Below are positions 6,223-42,281 of a stretch of DNA of 64,000 nt, piece by piece. The position numbers and the translations under genes are program-made. The stretch is taken from NCBI GenBank assembly GCA_005239635.1, contig SBBQ01000071.1, forward strand, positions 1 through 64,000, written 5' to 3'. This DNA is from Uliginosibacterium gangwonense (GTDB lineage Bacteria; Pseudomonadota; Gammaproteobacteria; Burkholderiales; Rhodocyclaceae). The notes under the pieces were generated by a model. That model saw only the letters and a list, made by a program, of their open reading frames with translations. It was not told the DNA's origin and ran no database searches. Position 1 is the first letter of the stretch; each line of letters begins with the position of its first letter.

Positions 6223-6762
6223 ATGGCCCGTCTGCAAGAATTTTACAAGTCCGATGTCGTGGCTAAGCTGCAAAAGCAGTTTGGCTATAAGTCGATCATG
6301 GAAGTTCCGCGTATCACCAAAATCACGCTGAATATGGGTGTGGGTGAAGCGGTTGGTGATAAAAAAGTGCTTGAGCACGCGGTTGGCGACATGACCAAGA
6401 TTGCCGGTCAAAAGCCTGTTGTGACTCGCGCTAAGAAAGCTATTGCCGGCTTCAAGATTCGTGAAGGCTACCCCATCGGGTGCATGGTGACCCTTCGTGG
6501 TCCGCAAATGTACGAGTTTCTCGATCGCTTCATTTCAGTTGCTATTCCGCGTATTCGCGATTTCCGCGGTATCGGTGGCAAGGGTTTTGATGGCCGCGGT
6601 AACTACAACGTGGGTGTCAAGGAGCAGATCATGTTCCCTGAGATCGAGTACGACAAGGTTGATGCTCTGCGCGGCATGAACATCAGCATTACGACGACTG
6701 CAAAGACCGACGCGGAAGCGCGTGCGTTGTTGGCAGCGTTTAAATTCCCTTTCAAGAACTGA
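6223..6762 (+). CDS. rplE: 50S ribosomal protein L5
   Basis: L5 binds 5S rRNA in the central protuberance and contacts P-site tRNA. The 179-residue product is of normal length, with [35 protein letters not shown] and the C-terminal [20 protein letters not shown]. It follows rplX by 9 nt; in E. coli this junction is the target of S8 feedback control. Confidence 0.97.
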
Positions 6763-6769
6763 GGGTTGT

Positions 6770-7075
6770 ATGGCGAAGCTGGCTCTCAAGAACCGTGAAG
6801 CAAAGCGTGCAAAGTTGGTGGCCAAGTTTGCTGCCAAGCGCGCAGCTCTGGTTGCTATCGTAAATGACACTGCACAGTCCGACGACGAACGTATGGCTGC
6901 ACGTTTGAAGCTGCAACAGCTTCCGCGTAATGCCAACCCGACTCGTCAGCGTAATCGCTGCGAGTTGACGGGTCGTCCTCGCGGTTATTTCCGCAAGTTT
7001 GGCCTGTGTCGCAACAAGCTTCGTGAGGCTGCCTTCCGTGGTGAAGTGCCGGGTCTTGTGAAGGCCAGCTGGTAA
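6770..7075 (+). CDS. rpsN: 30S ribosomal protein S14 (zinc-free long form)
   Basis: S14 is in the 30S head. The start is the ATG at 6770 ([19 protein letters not shown], 101 residues, the E. coli length); an upstream in-frame ATG at 6722 lies inside rplE and is rejected. The long form lacks the CxxC zinc ribbon and has the conserved [25 protein letters not shown] precedes the start. Confidence 0.96.
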
Positions 7076-7086
7076 GGAGACGGATA

Positions 7087-7482
7087 ATGAGTATGAGTGA
7101 TCCGATCGCCGATATGCTGACGCGCATCCGCAATGGTCAGATGGCGCAGAAGGGCTCTGTGAGCATGCCGTCATCCAAGATCAAGGCAGCGATTGCTGCA
7201 GTGCTTAAGGATGAAGGTTATATCGACGATTTCGTGGTGCGTAAGAATGGTGCGCACACTGAATTGGATATCGCGCTCCGCTACTATGCGGGCCGTCCGG
7301 TAATCGAGCGTATCGAGCGAGTAAGCCGTCCTGGCTTGCGTATTTATCGTGGCATGTCAGATCTGCCGCGTGTGCTCAATGGGCTGGGTGTGGCAATTGT
7401 GTCCACGCCTAAGGGTGTAATGACTGATCGCAAGGCGCGCTCCCAGAATGTTGGTGGCGAAGTGCTGTGCATCGTTTCGTAA
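7087..7482 (+). CDS. rpsH: 30S ribosomal protein S8
   Basis: S8 binds the central domain of 16S rRNA and in E. coli represses the spc operon. The 131-residue product starts [19 protein letters not shown] and ends with [20 protein letters not shown] and GEVLCIVS. The first of two close ATGs is used because AAGGAGA is 6 nt upstream and E. coli S8 begins in the same way. Confidence 0.97.
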
Positions 7483-38710: not shown

Positions 38711-39922
38711 ATGAGCCATGCAGTGAGCAAAGCAATACAAGCGGTCTATCTCGTTGCCGCGACACGCACGCCCGTTGGCAAAAAGGGCGGCATGTTTCGC
38801 AGCGTACGACCGGACGACTTGCTGGCGCACGTCATCCGCCAAGTGGTGGCCAAAGTGCCGAACTTAGACCCGCATGAAATTGGCGATGTGATCGCCGGTT
38901 GCGCCATGCCTGAAGGTGAGCAGGGCATGAACGTGGCGCGTATCGGTTTGCTATTAGCAGGTTTGCCCAACACGGTGCCGGGCGTCACGGTCAATCGATT
39001 CTGCGCATCGGGCGTGCAAGCTGTGGCCGATGCAGCTAATCGCATCCGCCTTGGCGAGGCCGATGTCATGCTCGCTGCCGGCACCGAGAGCATGAGCTGT
39101 ATGCCGCAAATGACCGGCAACAAAACCAGCCTTAACCCTGCCGTATTTTCACATTCAGAGAATGTTGGCATTGCCTATGGCATGGGGCTCACCGCAGAGA
39201 AGGTGGCGCAGCAATGGCAAGTGAATCGCGAAGACCAAGATGTCTTCGCATTTCAATCTCACCAGCGTGCGTTGGCGGCACAAAGCACGGGCGCGTTTGC
39301 CAATGAAATTTCACCCTACACCGTGCAAACCTATGCGCCGGGCCAAGGCGGCGCAGTGCGCGTGGCCGAGCGTATGTGCGCAGTGGATGAAGGTCCGCGT
39401 GCGGATTCGTCGATTGAAGGATTGGCAAAACTCAAACCCGTGTTTGCGGTACGCGGCAGCGTAACCGCGGGTAACAGCTCGCAAATGTCAGATGGTGCAG
39501 CAGCCGTGTTGCTCATGAGCGAAGCTGCGCTCAAACGTTACAACGTAACGCCCATTGCACGCTTTTGCAGTTTTGCGGTGGCGGGCGTGCCGCCCGAAGT
39601 TATGGGCATCGGTCCGATTGAAGCCATACCGCGTGCGCTCAAAGCCGCAGGCATAGCGCAAAACGCATTAGATTGGATTGAGCTGAACGAAGCCTTCGCC
39701 GCGCAGTCGCTGGCGGTTATGCGTCAATTGCAACTCGACCCCGCTAAAGTAAATCCCTTGGGCGGTGCCATTGCTCTCGGCCATCCGTTGGGCGCGACTG
39801 GCGCAATTCGCACCGCGACCTTGCTGAGCGCGATGCAACGCGATGCATCAGTGCGACACGGCATGATCACCATGTGCATTGGCACGGGCATGGGTGCGGC
39901 TGCTATTTACGAACGGTGCTAG
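38711..39922 (+). CDS. fadA: Acetyl-CoA C-acyltransferase (thiolase), FadA-like
   Basis: A 403-residue thiolase. ATG 38711 is chosen because GGGAG ends 7 nt upstream, whereas ATG 38705 touches it. The nucleophile cysteine is in NRFCASGVQAVADAA, the general base in GGAIALGHPLGATG, and the second cysteine in MCIGTGMGAA. It follows the FadN-like gene and probably forms a second thiolytic complex. Two repeated 9-mers fall in it, one at the same place as in the FadI-like gene (GLAKLKPVF). Confidence 0.9.
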   Translation: MSHAVSKAIQAVYLVAATRTPVGKKGGMFRSVRPDDLLAHVIRQVVAKVPNLDPHEIGDVIAGCAMPEGEQGMNVARIGLLLAGLPNTVPGVTVNRFCASGVQAVADAANRIRLGEADVMLAAGTESMSCMPQMTGNKTSLNPAVFSHSENVGIAYGMGLTAEKVAQQWQVNREDQDVFAFQSHQRALAAQSTGAFANEISPYTVQTYAPGQGGAVRVAERMCAVDEGPRADSSIEGLAKLKPVFAVRGSVTAGNSSQMSDGAAAVLLMSEAALKRYNVTPIARFCSFAVAGVPPEVMGIGPIEAIPRALKAAGIAQNALDWIELNEAFAAQSLAVMRQLQLDPAKVNPLGGAIALGHPLGATGAIRTATLLSAMQRDASVRHGMITMCIGTGMGAAAIYERC

Positions 39923-40103: not shown

Positions 40104-40925
40104 GTGAGTAATCAGGCCAACACCAATCAAACCGTTTTGCTGCAAATTGATGAGGCTGGCATTGCGACACTCACCTTAAATGACCCACACTCGCTCAACG
40201 CCCTGTCTAACGACATGATGCAAGCGCTACGCGCCCAAGTTGAACGCGTAGTGGCCGACGCTAACGTCAAAGTCATCGTGCTACAAGGGGCCTGTGGCCA
40301 CTTTATGTCCGGCGGCAATATCAAAGAATTTTCGCAACAACTCAGCCTGCCCGGCAAAGACCGGCTTGCGCTCACCCACGCCATGATCACGCAGTGGATC
40401 AATCCCACCGTGCTCGCCTTGCGCAACACACATCAACCCGTTATTGCCAAAGTGCAAGGCGCGTGCGCGGGCTTTGGTTTGTCGCTCATGCTCAGTGCCG
40501 ACCTGGCGGTGGCAGACGACAGCGCACGCTTTAGCACTGCCTACACGCGCATTGGTTTATCGCCCGACGGTGGCGCTACACACTTTTTGGCGGCGCGTCT
40601 TGGGCCGCTGCGTGCCGCACAGTTGTTCATGATGGCAGAACGATTTGACGCCGAACAAGCGCACGACATGGGCCTGCTCAACAAAGTGGTGCCGGCCGGC
40701 ATGCTCGATTTAGAAGTGGCTCAGCTCGCGCAACACTTAGCGCAAGGCGCGCGCCACGCCTATGGCGAAATTAAACGCCTACTCAACGCCGCGCCGCTCA
40801 ACACATTGGCAACACAGCTTGAGGCGGAGGCTGATGCCTTCTCGCGTTGCAGCGCCACCAACGACTACGCCGAAGGCATTCAGTCGTTTCTGCAAAAGCG
40901 TAGGCCGAGGTTTGAGGGGCGGTAG
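40104..40925 (+). CDS. Enoyl-CoA hydratase/isomerase family protein
   Basis: A 273-residue crotonase-fold protein starting at GTG 40104 (SNQANTNQTVLLQIDEAGIA). Oxyanion-hole motifs are HFMSGGNIKEF and VQGACAGFGLSLMLSADLAV; the acidic active-site region is TRIGLSPDGGATHFLAARLG. The aspartate in place of one catalytic glutamate resembles PaaG-type isomerases, so double-bond isomerisation is as likely as hydration. It ends the beta-oxidation region. Confidence 0.85.
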   Translation: MSNQANTNQTVLLQIDEAGIATLTLNDPHSLNALSNDMMQALRAQVERVVADANVKVIVLQGACGHFMSGGNIKEFSQQLSLPGKDRLALTHAMITQWINPTVLALRNTHQPVIAKVQGACAGFGLSLMLSADLAVADDSARFSTAYTRIGLSPDGGATHFLAARLGPLRAAQLFMMAERFDAEQAHDMGLLNKVVPAGMLDLEVAQLAQHLAQGARHAYGEIKRLLNAAPLNTLATQLEAEADAFSRCSATNDYAEGIQSFLQKRRPRFEGR

Positions 40926-40929
40926 ATTG

Positions 40930-41514
40930 ATGGAGGGCTACATTGAAACGGGCTTTGAAGCTGATTTGGCAGATTCCTTGGAAATGGCGTTCGTCTTTCT
41001 AGAGTCAAGCCAAACAGACAGTCGATACTGGAAGTGGTTTGTTCTAGCGCTTCATTCATCTGTGCAAGGTACTGCCGCATTGGCACTGGAGCATGGAAAT
41101 GGCCTGCTCATTCAAAAACCAGGGGTGATGAAGCGCATAATTGAGTCGCGGGGTGATAACGCCCAAATAGTTGAGCGTTATATGGACAAATTTACCAATC
41201 TTGTTGAGAAAACCGGACGAAATGAAATGCTGAGGCAGGGTGCAGTCCCGCTGGAAGATAATGGCCATGTTAGTGCCATGAGAGTATTAAATGATATTCG
41301 TGAGGATTTCGTTCACTTCAATATCAACTCATGGATGATCGGCATTCAAAACTTACTTAAGCTAGCTCAGCATGGAGTTGAATACATTTGTCATTACGCC
41401 AGAGACACTCCTGCAATTTTGTGGCACGAAGAATCGTGTCAGAAGCGAGCAAATGCGGCTATTGTTGCACTACGAGATAAATTAGCTGTATTAAGTGTGT
41501 CTAATAATAATTAG
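40930..41514 (+). CDS. HEPN-like alpha-helical protein of unknown function
   Basis: 194 residues from ATG 40930, four nt after the previous stop. All-helical by appearance, with WKWFVLALHSSVQGTAALAL near residue 40 and LNDIREDFVHFNINSWM. The R124-x4-H129 pattern in REDFVH is the RNase signature of HEPN domains, and the layout resembles proteobacterial HEPN-like proteins with an RNDFxHF motif. The gene looks A/T-richer than its neighbours and has no copy of the repeated 9-mer, which hints at later acquisition. No antitoxin or nucleotidyltransferase partner is adjacent. Its stop overlaps the convergent ydcF-like gene by 4 nt. Confidence 0.6.
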   Translation: MEGYIETGFEADLADSLEMAFVFLESSQTDSRYWKWFVLALHSSVQGTAALALEHGNGLLIQKPGVMKRIIESRGDNAQIVERYMDKFTNLVEKTGRNEMLRQGAVPLEDNGHVSAMRVLNDIREDFVHFNINSWMIGIQNLLKLAQHGVEYICHYARDTPAILWHEESCQKRANAAIVALRDKLAVLSVSNNN

Positions 41515-42281
41515 CGCGTATCTACTCGCACCACCGCATACCCCAACATCTCATGCAGCGCGTAGTAGCTGTTATGCAGCGCGTTCATCGACGGTAAAAA
41601 ATCATTCACTTCTAATGGCTCAGGCTCGGGGTATTGCATGTCGAGCGGGGCCGGCACCATTTCAAACCCGACATTGGCAAATTCGGCCATGGCGCGCCGC
41701 ATGTGAAAGGCGTGGGTGACCAGCACGATGCGTTTAACGTTGGCCTGCTTCAGCAAGGGGGCCGATAGCGTGGCGTTTTCGTGTGTGTCGTGCGAGCGAT
41801 CTTCTGCCCATTGCACGGGCACACCAAACTCATTTTCGAGTGACTGTTGCATCACCTTGGCTTCAGACGGGCCGCGTCCAATTTGCCCGCCGGTCACGAG
41901 CACGGGTAGCTGCGTGGCGCGTGCAATGATTGCGCCATGACGCACCCGTTCTAAGGTGAGGGCATTGACGGACCAGTCGTCATATTCTGGCGCAAAGCGT
42001 TTGCCGCCACCCAAAATCACAATGGCTTGCGCGGTTTGCAGTTGTTCTAAATTAGGTGAGGCCGGTGCTTGGCCTGCGGCTTGGCGCAGCAAAAAATCGC
42101 TGCAAACGGGTAGGCATAACAGCAGCCCCAAACTCAGTCCGCCGATGAGCAGTGTTTTGCCAATGCGTGGCCATTTGCGCCAAAGCAGTAAGCCCAGCAA
42201 GGCCAGCAGCAACGGCCCACCGGGCGGCAGAATGAGCGACGAAACCAGTTTTTTGAAAGCGAAATACAGGCTAGACGACAT
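41511..42281 (-). CDS. YdcF/ElyC family protein (DUF218)
   Basis: A 256-residue protein with two N-terminal membrane segments (about residues 10-60) and a DUF218 domain: AQAIVILGGGKRFAPEYDDW, TLERVRHGAIIARATQLPVL and VKRIVLVTHAFHMRRAMAEF. E. coli ElyC and SanA, of the same family, affect envelope integrity and peptidoglycan or lipid-carrier handling; the activity is not established. Two repeated 9-mers lie in it, in opposite orientation. Confidence 0.85.
   Translation of the reverse strand: MSSSLYFAFKKLVSSLILPPGGPLLLALLGLLLWRKWPRIGKTLLIGGLSLGLLLCLPVCSDFLLRQAAGQAPASPNLEQLQTAQAIVILGGGKRFAPEYDDWSVNALTLERVRHGAIIARATQLPVLVTGGQIGRGPSEAKVMQQSLENEFGVPVQWAEDRSHDTHENATLSAPLLKQANVKRIVLVTHAFHMRRAMAEFANVGFEMVPAPLDMQYPEPEPLEVNDFLPSMNALHNSYYALHEMLGYAVVRVDTR

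Follow-up and report, generated by a model that had tools for sequence, protein, structure and literature searches.

A HEPN-like protein of an unnamed, partly integron-borne family encoded between two housekeeping genes of Uliginosibacterium gangwonense

A 194-codon gene of Uliginosibacterium gangwonense, lying directly behind an enoyl-CoA hydratase gene, raises two questions: what a protein with the R-x4-H motif of HEPN ribonucleases does in such a neighbourhood, and how the gene came to be there. The stretch of DNA that was analysed (the window; contig SBBQ01000071.1, positions 1 to 64,000) has a length of 64,000 nucleotides, and its relevant features are collected in Table 1. The frame, intact and full-length, is bounded by an ATG at 40930 and a TAG at 41512-41514, just as the initial annotation had placed it. 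The gene had also been described as squeezed between two housekeeping genes, unlike its neighbours in composition and without an adjacent partner, and all of this is borne out: the upstream gene stops at 40925, leaving a gap of 4 bp to the ATG, and the 3′ ends of the HEPN-like gene and the convergent DUF218 gene overlap by 4 bases; the G+C content is 0.44 as against 0.56 in the 3-kb flanks, and at third codon positions 0.41 as against 0.60-0.66 in four nearby genes; no antitoxin-like gene lies beside it, the adjacent genes examined being fatty-acid and housekeeping genes. One further argument, the absence of a genome motif from the gene, had to be given up. If the motif meant is ATTGGCAA/TTGCCAAT, with 54 copies in 64 kb where 4.9 are expected from dinucleotides (for example at 39297, 40013, 40805 and 41673), its absence is uninformative and was rejected as a mark of a foreign gene, 718 of 1269 windows of gene size (585 bp) being equally devoid of it. 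This highly iterated motif often occurs as ATTGGCAAA.

Table 1. Features of the HEPN-like gene and its flanks (positions of the window)
Feature	Position	Strand	Remarks
Enoyl-CoA hydratase/isomerase gene, upstream neighbour	40104..40925	+	ECH_1, E 4.4e-52
HEPN-like gene	40930..41514	+	194 aa; basis: translation, model, conservation in 18/18 rows
H42 codon, helix 2	41053..41055	+	invariant 18/18; possible third active-site residue (putative role)
R124-E-D-F-V-H129 codons, HEPN R-x4-H motif	41299..41316	+	family form R-N-x-F-[VI]-H
DUF218 gene, downstream convergent neighbour	41511..42281	-	DUF218, E 1.9e-31

The motif that had been noted, R124-EDFV-H129, is the only R-x4-H in the protein. Its presence by itself is weak evidence, for an R-x4-H turns up in 33% of the sequences when the protein is shuffled 20,000 times at constant composition, and 30 of the 65 non-overlapping ORFs of 100 aa or longer in the window contain one. 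It gains significance from its position in the fold and from the invariance of R124 and H129 in all 18 aligned rows (the window protein and 17 relatives), where W34 and H42 are invariant as well and identity to the window protein is 15-30% (15-row alignment; up to 31% in another alignment). The claim that the motif points to a HEPN protein thus stands once fold, position and invariance are added, while the motif alone counts for very little. Around the motif, the family consensus reads L-R-N-x-F-[VI]-H-F-x-P-x-G-W-S. In HEPN proteins the residue after the arginine is polar, mostly N, D or H; here it is N in 15 rows, D in one, S in one and E in the window copy (R-E-D-F-V-H), which has also lost part of the GWS-x-E stretch that follows. 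Many HEPN families, not all, have an acidic Ex3[KR] motif in helix 2, which is not required; by alignment and model, helix 33-54 of this family has no conserved acidic residue and no Ex3[KR], and carries the conserved pair H42-x3-Q46, of which H42, halfway along the helix, may replace the usual acidic residue. Because RE takes the place of RN and the branch of the window copy is long, its own activity is less sure than that of its relatives and may have been changed or lost.

The AlphaFold2 model of the window protein (pLDDT 85.3, pTM 0.86) consists of helices 9-26, 33-54 (core 2), 112-128 (core 3), 139-159 (core 4) and 168-193 with no strand of three or more residues, in agreement with the earlier description of the protein as all-helical. 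When the Foldseek matches of this model were given a second look with VIA, ranks 1-24 were all HEPN entries (among which we count 1ufb, taken to be one), including the HepT toxin 6m6w (Z 10.5, rmsd 3.2 over 121 residues), AF0298 (Z 10.0), AbiV 9bj7 (Z 8.6) and Csm6 (Z 7.0); these scores, 10.5 to 6.2, are of the middling kind that is common for helical bundles, for which Z below about 13 is inconclusive. The next entry is MtlR (6kcr, Z 6.2), itself of a HEPN family, and unrelated proteins follow from Z 6.1 down. For the model of a Rhodocyclaceae relative (pLDDT 89.3), VIA places HEPN entries at ranks 1-19 (Z from 9.8 down to 5.7), followed by an unrelated protein (Z 5.7). Plain Foldseek E-values are poor for the window model (best HEPN match 0.082), the top plain Foldseek rows of the relative's model are not HEPN, and a BFVD structure search with the window model gave no significant match. 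R124 falls close to the end of core helix 3, and the loop that leads to helix 139-159 begins with H129; both agree with the placement of the HEPN motif at the end of helix 3 or in the helix 3-4 loop given in the accessible text of PMC3710099. Ranking, motif position and conservation taken together support calling the protein HEPN-like: structure prediction, which the initial annotation had proposed as a check, returned a HEPN topology, an all-helical bundle of four helices running up and down, and not another fold.

Among known systems, the best structural matches are the HepT toxins of HEPN-MNT pairs (SO_3166; 5yep, 6m6w, 6m6u; Z 10.5), which fit the window model with an rmsd of about 3 over about 120 residues at 4-6% identity. 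HepT pairs include an MNT antitoxin gene, whereas the window copy is flanked by ECH and DUF218 genes, and the window model differs from HepT in its extra C-terminal helix (168-193) and in having 57 residues between helices 2 and 3. AbiV, the HEPN RNase of a two-component anti-phage system of Lactococcus, has the fold in common (Z 8.6, rmsd 4.4 over 138 residues, the alignment running up to model residue 187). AbiV lacks the motif histidine and, according to the part of PMC3710099 that was available, is thought to use another histidine located in an insert; in contrast, the motif histidine is invariant in the window family, an extra histidine lies in helix 2 and no partner gene is seen. Vpc_cass2 (PDB 3JRT; Anantharaman et al. 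2013) shares the HEPN fold and an R-x4-6-H motif, and it too is a single gene, in an integron cassette, with no partner known from the accessible text of PMC3710099 and PMC3548836; for its family PMC3710099 proposes, in the portion available, a dormancy-inducing RNase activity. It differs in that neither the window protein, the Rheinheimera member nor the 15-row profile matches its sequence at E <= 10, and in the location of the window model's insert between helices 2 and 3, which was set against the 3JRT family by description. 3JRT is not among the listed structural matches of either model, an absence that excludes nothing.

The gene is rare and is not a core gene, as a survey of relatives, also proposed at the outset, revealed. 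A protein search found it in one of 61 relatives, its own genome included; ten weak matches (E 0.046-0.75) in these 61 were taken as chance. With profiles from the relatives, the genomes with a match number 1 of 369 in the class, 6 of 398 in the phylum at E <= 0.01 (clear in its own genome, G516, G631 and G487), 5 of 297 in the family (clear in its own genome, G902 and G826) and 4 of 399 in the order, where every match is clear; the matches that are not clear, in G491 and G582 (phylum) and in G1024 and G034 (family), have E-values of 0.0005-0.007. Searches of Pfam, NCBIfam, PADLOC and PHROGs with the window protein gave no meaningful match, and no model of PADLOC-DB 2.0.0 matches any of 15 family members; the family is without a model in any of the four. 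Weak likeness to two HEPN models, each from one of the 15 scanned members and scoring under the curated cut-offs, was found from the Methylomonas member (PF18739, Apea-like HEPN; E 0.036) and the Zetaproteobacteria member (PF18735, RiboL-PSP HEPN; E 0.17). Matches of the window protein to lysine decarboxylase and Curtovirus V2, and a profile match to a designed repeat protein, were rejected as chance.

Relatives were located by tblastn on plasmids of Alteromonas, Methylomonas and Bradyrhizobium (the last with stops), and copies in Sphingobium and Methylobacterium with the Methylomonas member as query. Genome scans added members from Rhodocyclaceae, Binatia, Chloroflexi, Anaerolineales, Rheinheimera, Vreelandella, Zetaproteobacteria and Rugosibacter and from three genomes of the order. 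A member also occurs on an IMG/VR contig with phage tail genes, as read from translations: near the end of this contig (L043, 792-1571) lies a diverged member with RSTYAH, 94 bp past the stop of which is GTTAGGC. No relative was found in genome contigs by a single-protein pattern scan with the window protein, in viral contigs, for which the queries were the window protein, alignment A1 and the members from Alteromonas and Rheinheimera, or in the phage collection. The alignments, the tree and the count of 18 loci leave out L034 (frameshift) and L014, L015 and the other Bradyrhizobium records (stops); L035 is the L033 gene and L041 the L030 gene, each counted once; L012 and L040, 91.5% identical, are not independent. 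For P0010 and P0015 the translation begins within a longer ORF, and for P0008 four codons ahead of the probable start. Besides L014 and L015, nine more plasmid records from Bradyrhizobium contain stop-bearing copies of the gene, and one Bradyrhizobium record annotates the 5′ part as a RelB/DinJ antitoxin, which the family similarity does not support. HEPN proteins and integron-borne HEPN proteins are already known; what is new is this family, marked by an invariant histidine in helix 2, together with its probable settling outside integrons. Under the terms searched, paper listings and the openings of abstracts contain no description of the family, which may sit among uncharacterised cassettes reported elsewhere.

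Several relatives are integron gene cassettes, namely copies of Alteromonas, Vreelandella, Rheinheimera, Zetaproteobacteria, Rhodocyclaceae, Chloroflexi and Anaerolineales. Such cassettes are mobile units, known above all as carriers of antibiotic resistance and more recently of phage defence. To the initial description of an orphan gene it must be added that its family includes them. In a true cassette, a GTTRRRY ahead of the ORF is complementary to an RYYYAAC after it; accordingly, a 7-mer GTTNNNN before the start was required to be the exact reverse complement of an NNNNAAC at the stop. Six of the 18 loci pass exactly (L012, L033, L037, L038, L039 and L040) and L030 does so at six of seven letters, compared with none of 67 window ORFs and one of 506 ORFs of other loci, a control set that omits the cassette loci, L013, L080 and two window loci. 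L016 also agrees at six of seven letters; it was not counted, its site not being GTTRRRY and offering no hairpin candidate. The full signature is lacking in 11 of the 18 loci, the window included, with a core-like site upstream only in L013 and L080. For the attC-like hairpins between the two boxes, 0 or 1 of 100 shuffles did as well at L030, L033, L037, L039 and L040, and 5 of 100 at L038; the hairpin test was not significant for L012 (15 of 100) and L013 (8 of 100).

The Alteromonas plasmid and Vreelandella copies have 645 bp in common at 91.5% identity, starting exactly at the GTTAG core site. In Vreelandella zhaodongensis (L040, 5131-6535), a truncated integron integrase (TIGR02249, 220 bits, 188 aa compared with 315 positions) precedes a single intact cassette, which holds the HEPN gene. 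The Chloroflexi contig (L037) is considered a cassette array because four successive ORFs carry the signature, and two ORFs flanking the member in L030 carry it too. One neighbouring cassette ORF of L030 (31-1203, 390 aa) contains R-N-H-M-A-H and is perhaps a second HEPN-like cassette protein; it has no Pfam or NCBIfam match. A neighbouring ORF from the Zetaproteobacteria was compared by profile, without a match. The Alteromonas/Vreelandella pair is under purifying selection (dN 0.037, dS 0.289 and dN/dS 0.13 by NG86; dN 0.045, dS 0.183 and dN/dS 0.25 by YN00), which speaks for those copies only.

The window copy is not filed as an integron cassette: site and hairpin scans found no GTTRRRY before its ORF and no attC after it. 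GGTAGAT, just before the ATG, was considered as a GTTRRRY core and dropped, having one mismatch at the essential T; by a rough estimate, such a near-match occurs by chance within 25 bp about one time in three. Its own genome has only partial Xer-like matches to an integron integrase, none over the cut-off, and 14 control genomes score equally. In a tree of 18 proteins, the window copy belongs to a group of 12 with 97/97 support that holds all seven cassette copies; the order within the group is unresolved, and the window branch (2.51) is among the three longest of the family. Since the window copy lacks GTTRRRY and attC, its likely cassette past is inferred from these relatives.

G009 and G010, two genomes from the family to which the window genome belongs, have the hydratase and DUF218 genes side by side in convergent orientation with no HEPN gene between them; 14 bp separate the two genes in one relative, whereas in the other they share 14 nt. 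The HEPN-like gene is therefore most readily regarded as an insertion between genes that can be adjacent. These were the only two of 24 relatives' loci with a DUF218 relative in which the hydratase gene was directly beside it; a weak hydratase match in G003 lies elsewhere. The inserted stretch at the window locus is barely longer than the ORF. A parallel within this bacterial family is offered by Rugosibacter (L034, genome G826; minus strand, about 6617-7177), where a frameshifted member occurs in an apparent branched-chain amino-acid transporter operon: GTTAGCT, lying ahead of the HEPN frame, begins 2 nt past the point where the gene before it stops, and near the frame end there is AGCTGAC, which differs from AGCTAAC in one letter. 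By these motifs, the Rugosibacter copy is likely to be a cassette relic outside an integron. Loot et al. (2024) are said to have described cassettes that insert at attG sites located outside integrons. With its composition, its rarity and the empty site in relatives, the window gene is best explained as foreign and horizontally acquired, and we consider it fairly probable that it encodes a stand-alone HEPN protein of an unnamed family spread in part by integron cassettes, the window copy having been transferred in and now lying outside an integron.

As to function, no constant neighbour or partner gene was found among the family loci inspected, so the family is probably a one-gene system, and action of the protein alone is favoured. 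The most likely function, judging by analogy, would be that of a single-gene anti-phage or dormancy-inducing HEPN RNase. This guess rests on four published points, each taken from the accessible part of its source: HEPN domains with the motif are RNases of phage defence and toxin systems (PMC3710099); dormancy induction has been proposed for the cassette HEPN family discussed above; at least 16 of 179 V. cholerae cassettes, roughly a tenth, are anti-phage, and cassette defence systems are small (PMC12409362); and DefensePredictor validated further HEPN systems, one of them consisting of a single protein (PMC13092281). A defence context is also seen beside the Chloroflexi copy, where an Mrr-type nuclease is encoded by one of the four signature-bearing ORFs. 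In the proposed mechanism, the protein would dimerise like other HEPN proteins, R124 and H129, perhaps with H42 of helix 2, would form a metal-independent RNase site, phage or another stress would trigger the enzyme, and the cleavage of tRNA or mRNA would result in abortive infection or dormancy. The gene itself would have arrived by horizontal transfer at its present place outside integrons, directly behind the hydratase stop codon.

The alternative that survives best, although we judge it unlikely, is that the protein is a HEPN protein without catalysis, being, or having become in this genome, an RNA- or protein-binding regulator such as MtlR. The presence of MtlR in the structural list, the RE in place of RN, the lack of the usual helix-2 acidic residue and a branch among the family's three longest agree with this, but R124, H129 and H42 are kept in every row despite identities of 15-30%, as would be expected of an active site. 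Less likely again is the relic reading: a gene that was acquired, no longer has a function and is now decaying in a compact genome. Such genes do decay readily in this family, as the frameshifted Rugosibacter and stop-bearing Bradyrhizobium copies attest, and the long branch and partly lost motif surroundings of the window copy might be read in the same way; however, its 194-codon frame is intact and full-length with R, H, H42 and W34 all kept, and the Alteromonas/Vreelandella pair, for its own part, is constrained. It is improbable that the protein acts as toxin in a toxin-antitoxin pair, its antitoxin being encoded elsewhere in the genome: the closest solved structures are toxins of HepT/MntA pairs and the L079 member adjoins a Doc-type toxin gene, but the loci inspected have no constant partner and a one-ORF cassette has no room for one. 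The Doc-type gene (L079, 5747-6160) and the family member converge, with about 10 bp between their ends. Finally, domestication as a host gene of fatty-acid metabolism, for which a start 4 bp past the hydratase stop and likely co-transcription could be cited, is hardly credible in view of the absence of the gene from nearly all relatives, its foreign composition and the unrelated contexts of its relatives.

If the preferred reading, a transferred stand-alone HEPN protein, is taken further, a bolder and quite tentative proposal is that an undescribed cross-phylum family of one-gene anti-phage HEPN RNases, travelling as cassettes and with an unusual site formed by H42, R124 and H129, exits integrons by inserting behind the stop codons of housekeeping genes at attG-type sites, as at the window locus and in Rugosibacter, and thereby gains lasting co-transcription as a fixed defence gene that needs no mobile element. 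Most integron cassettes are unannotated, and this family is a concrete candidate among them, with a testable active site and members in several phyla. The copy in U. gangwonense appears to have left an integron and settled in a housekeeping neighbourhood, which would help to explain how defence genes turn into orphans outside defence islands.
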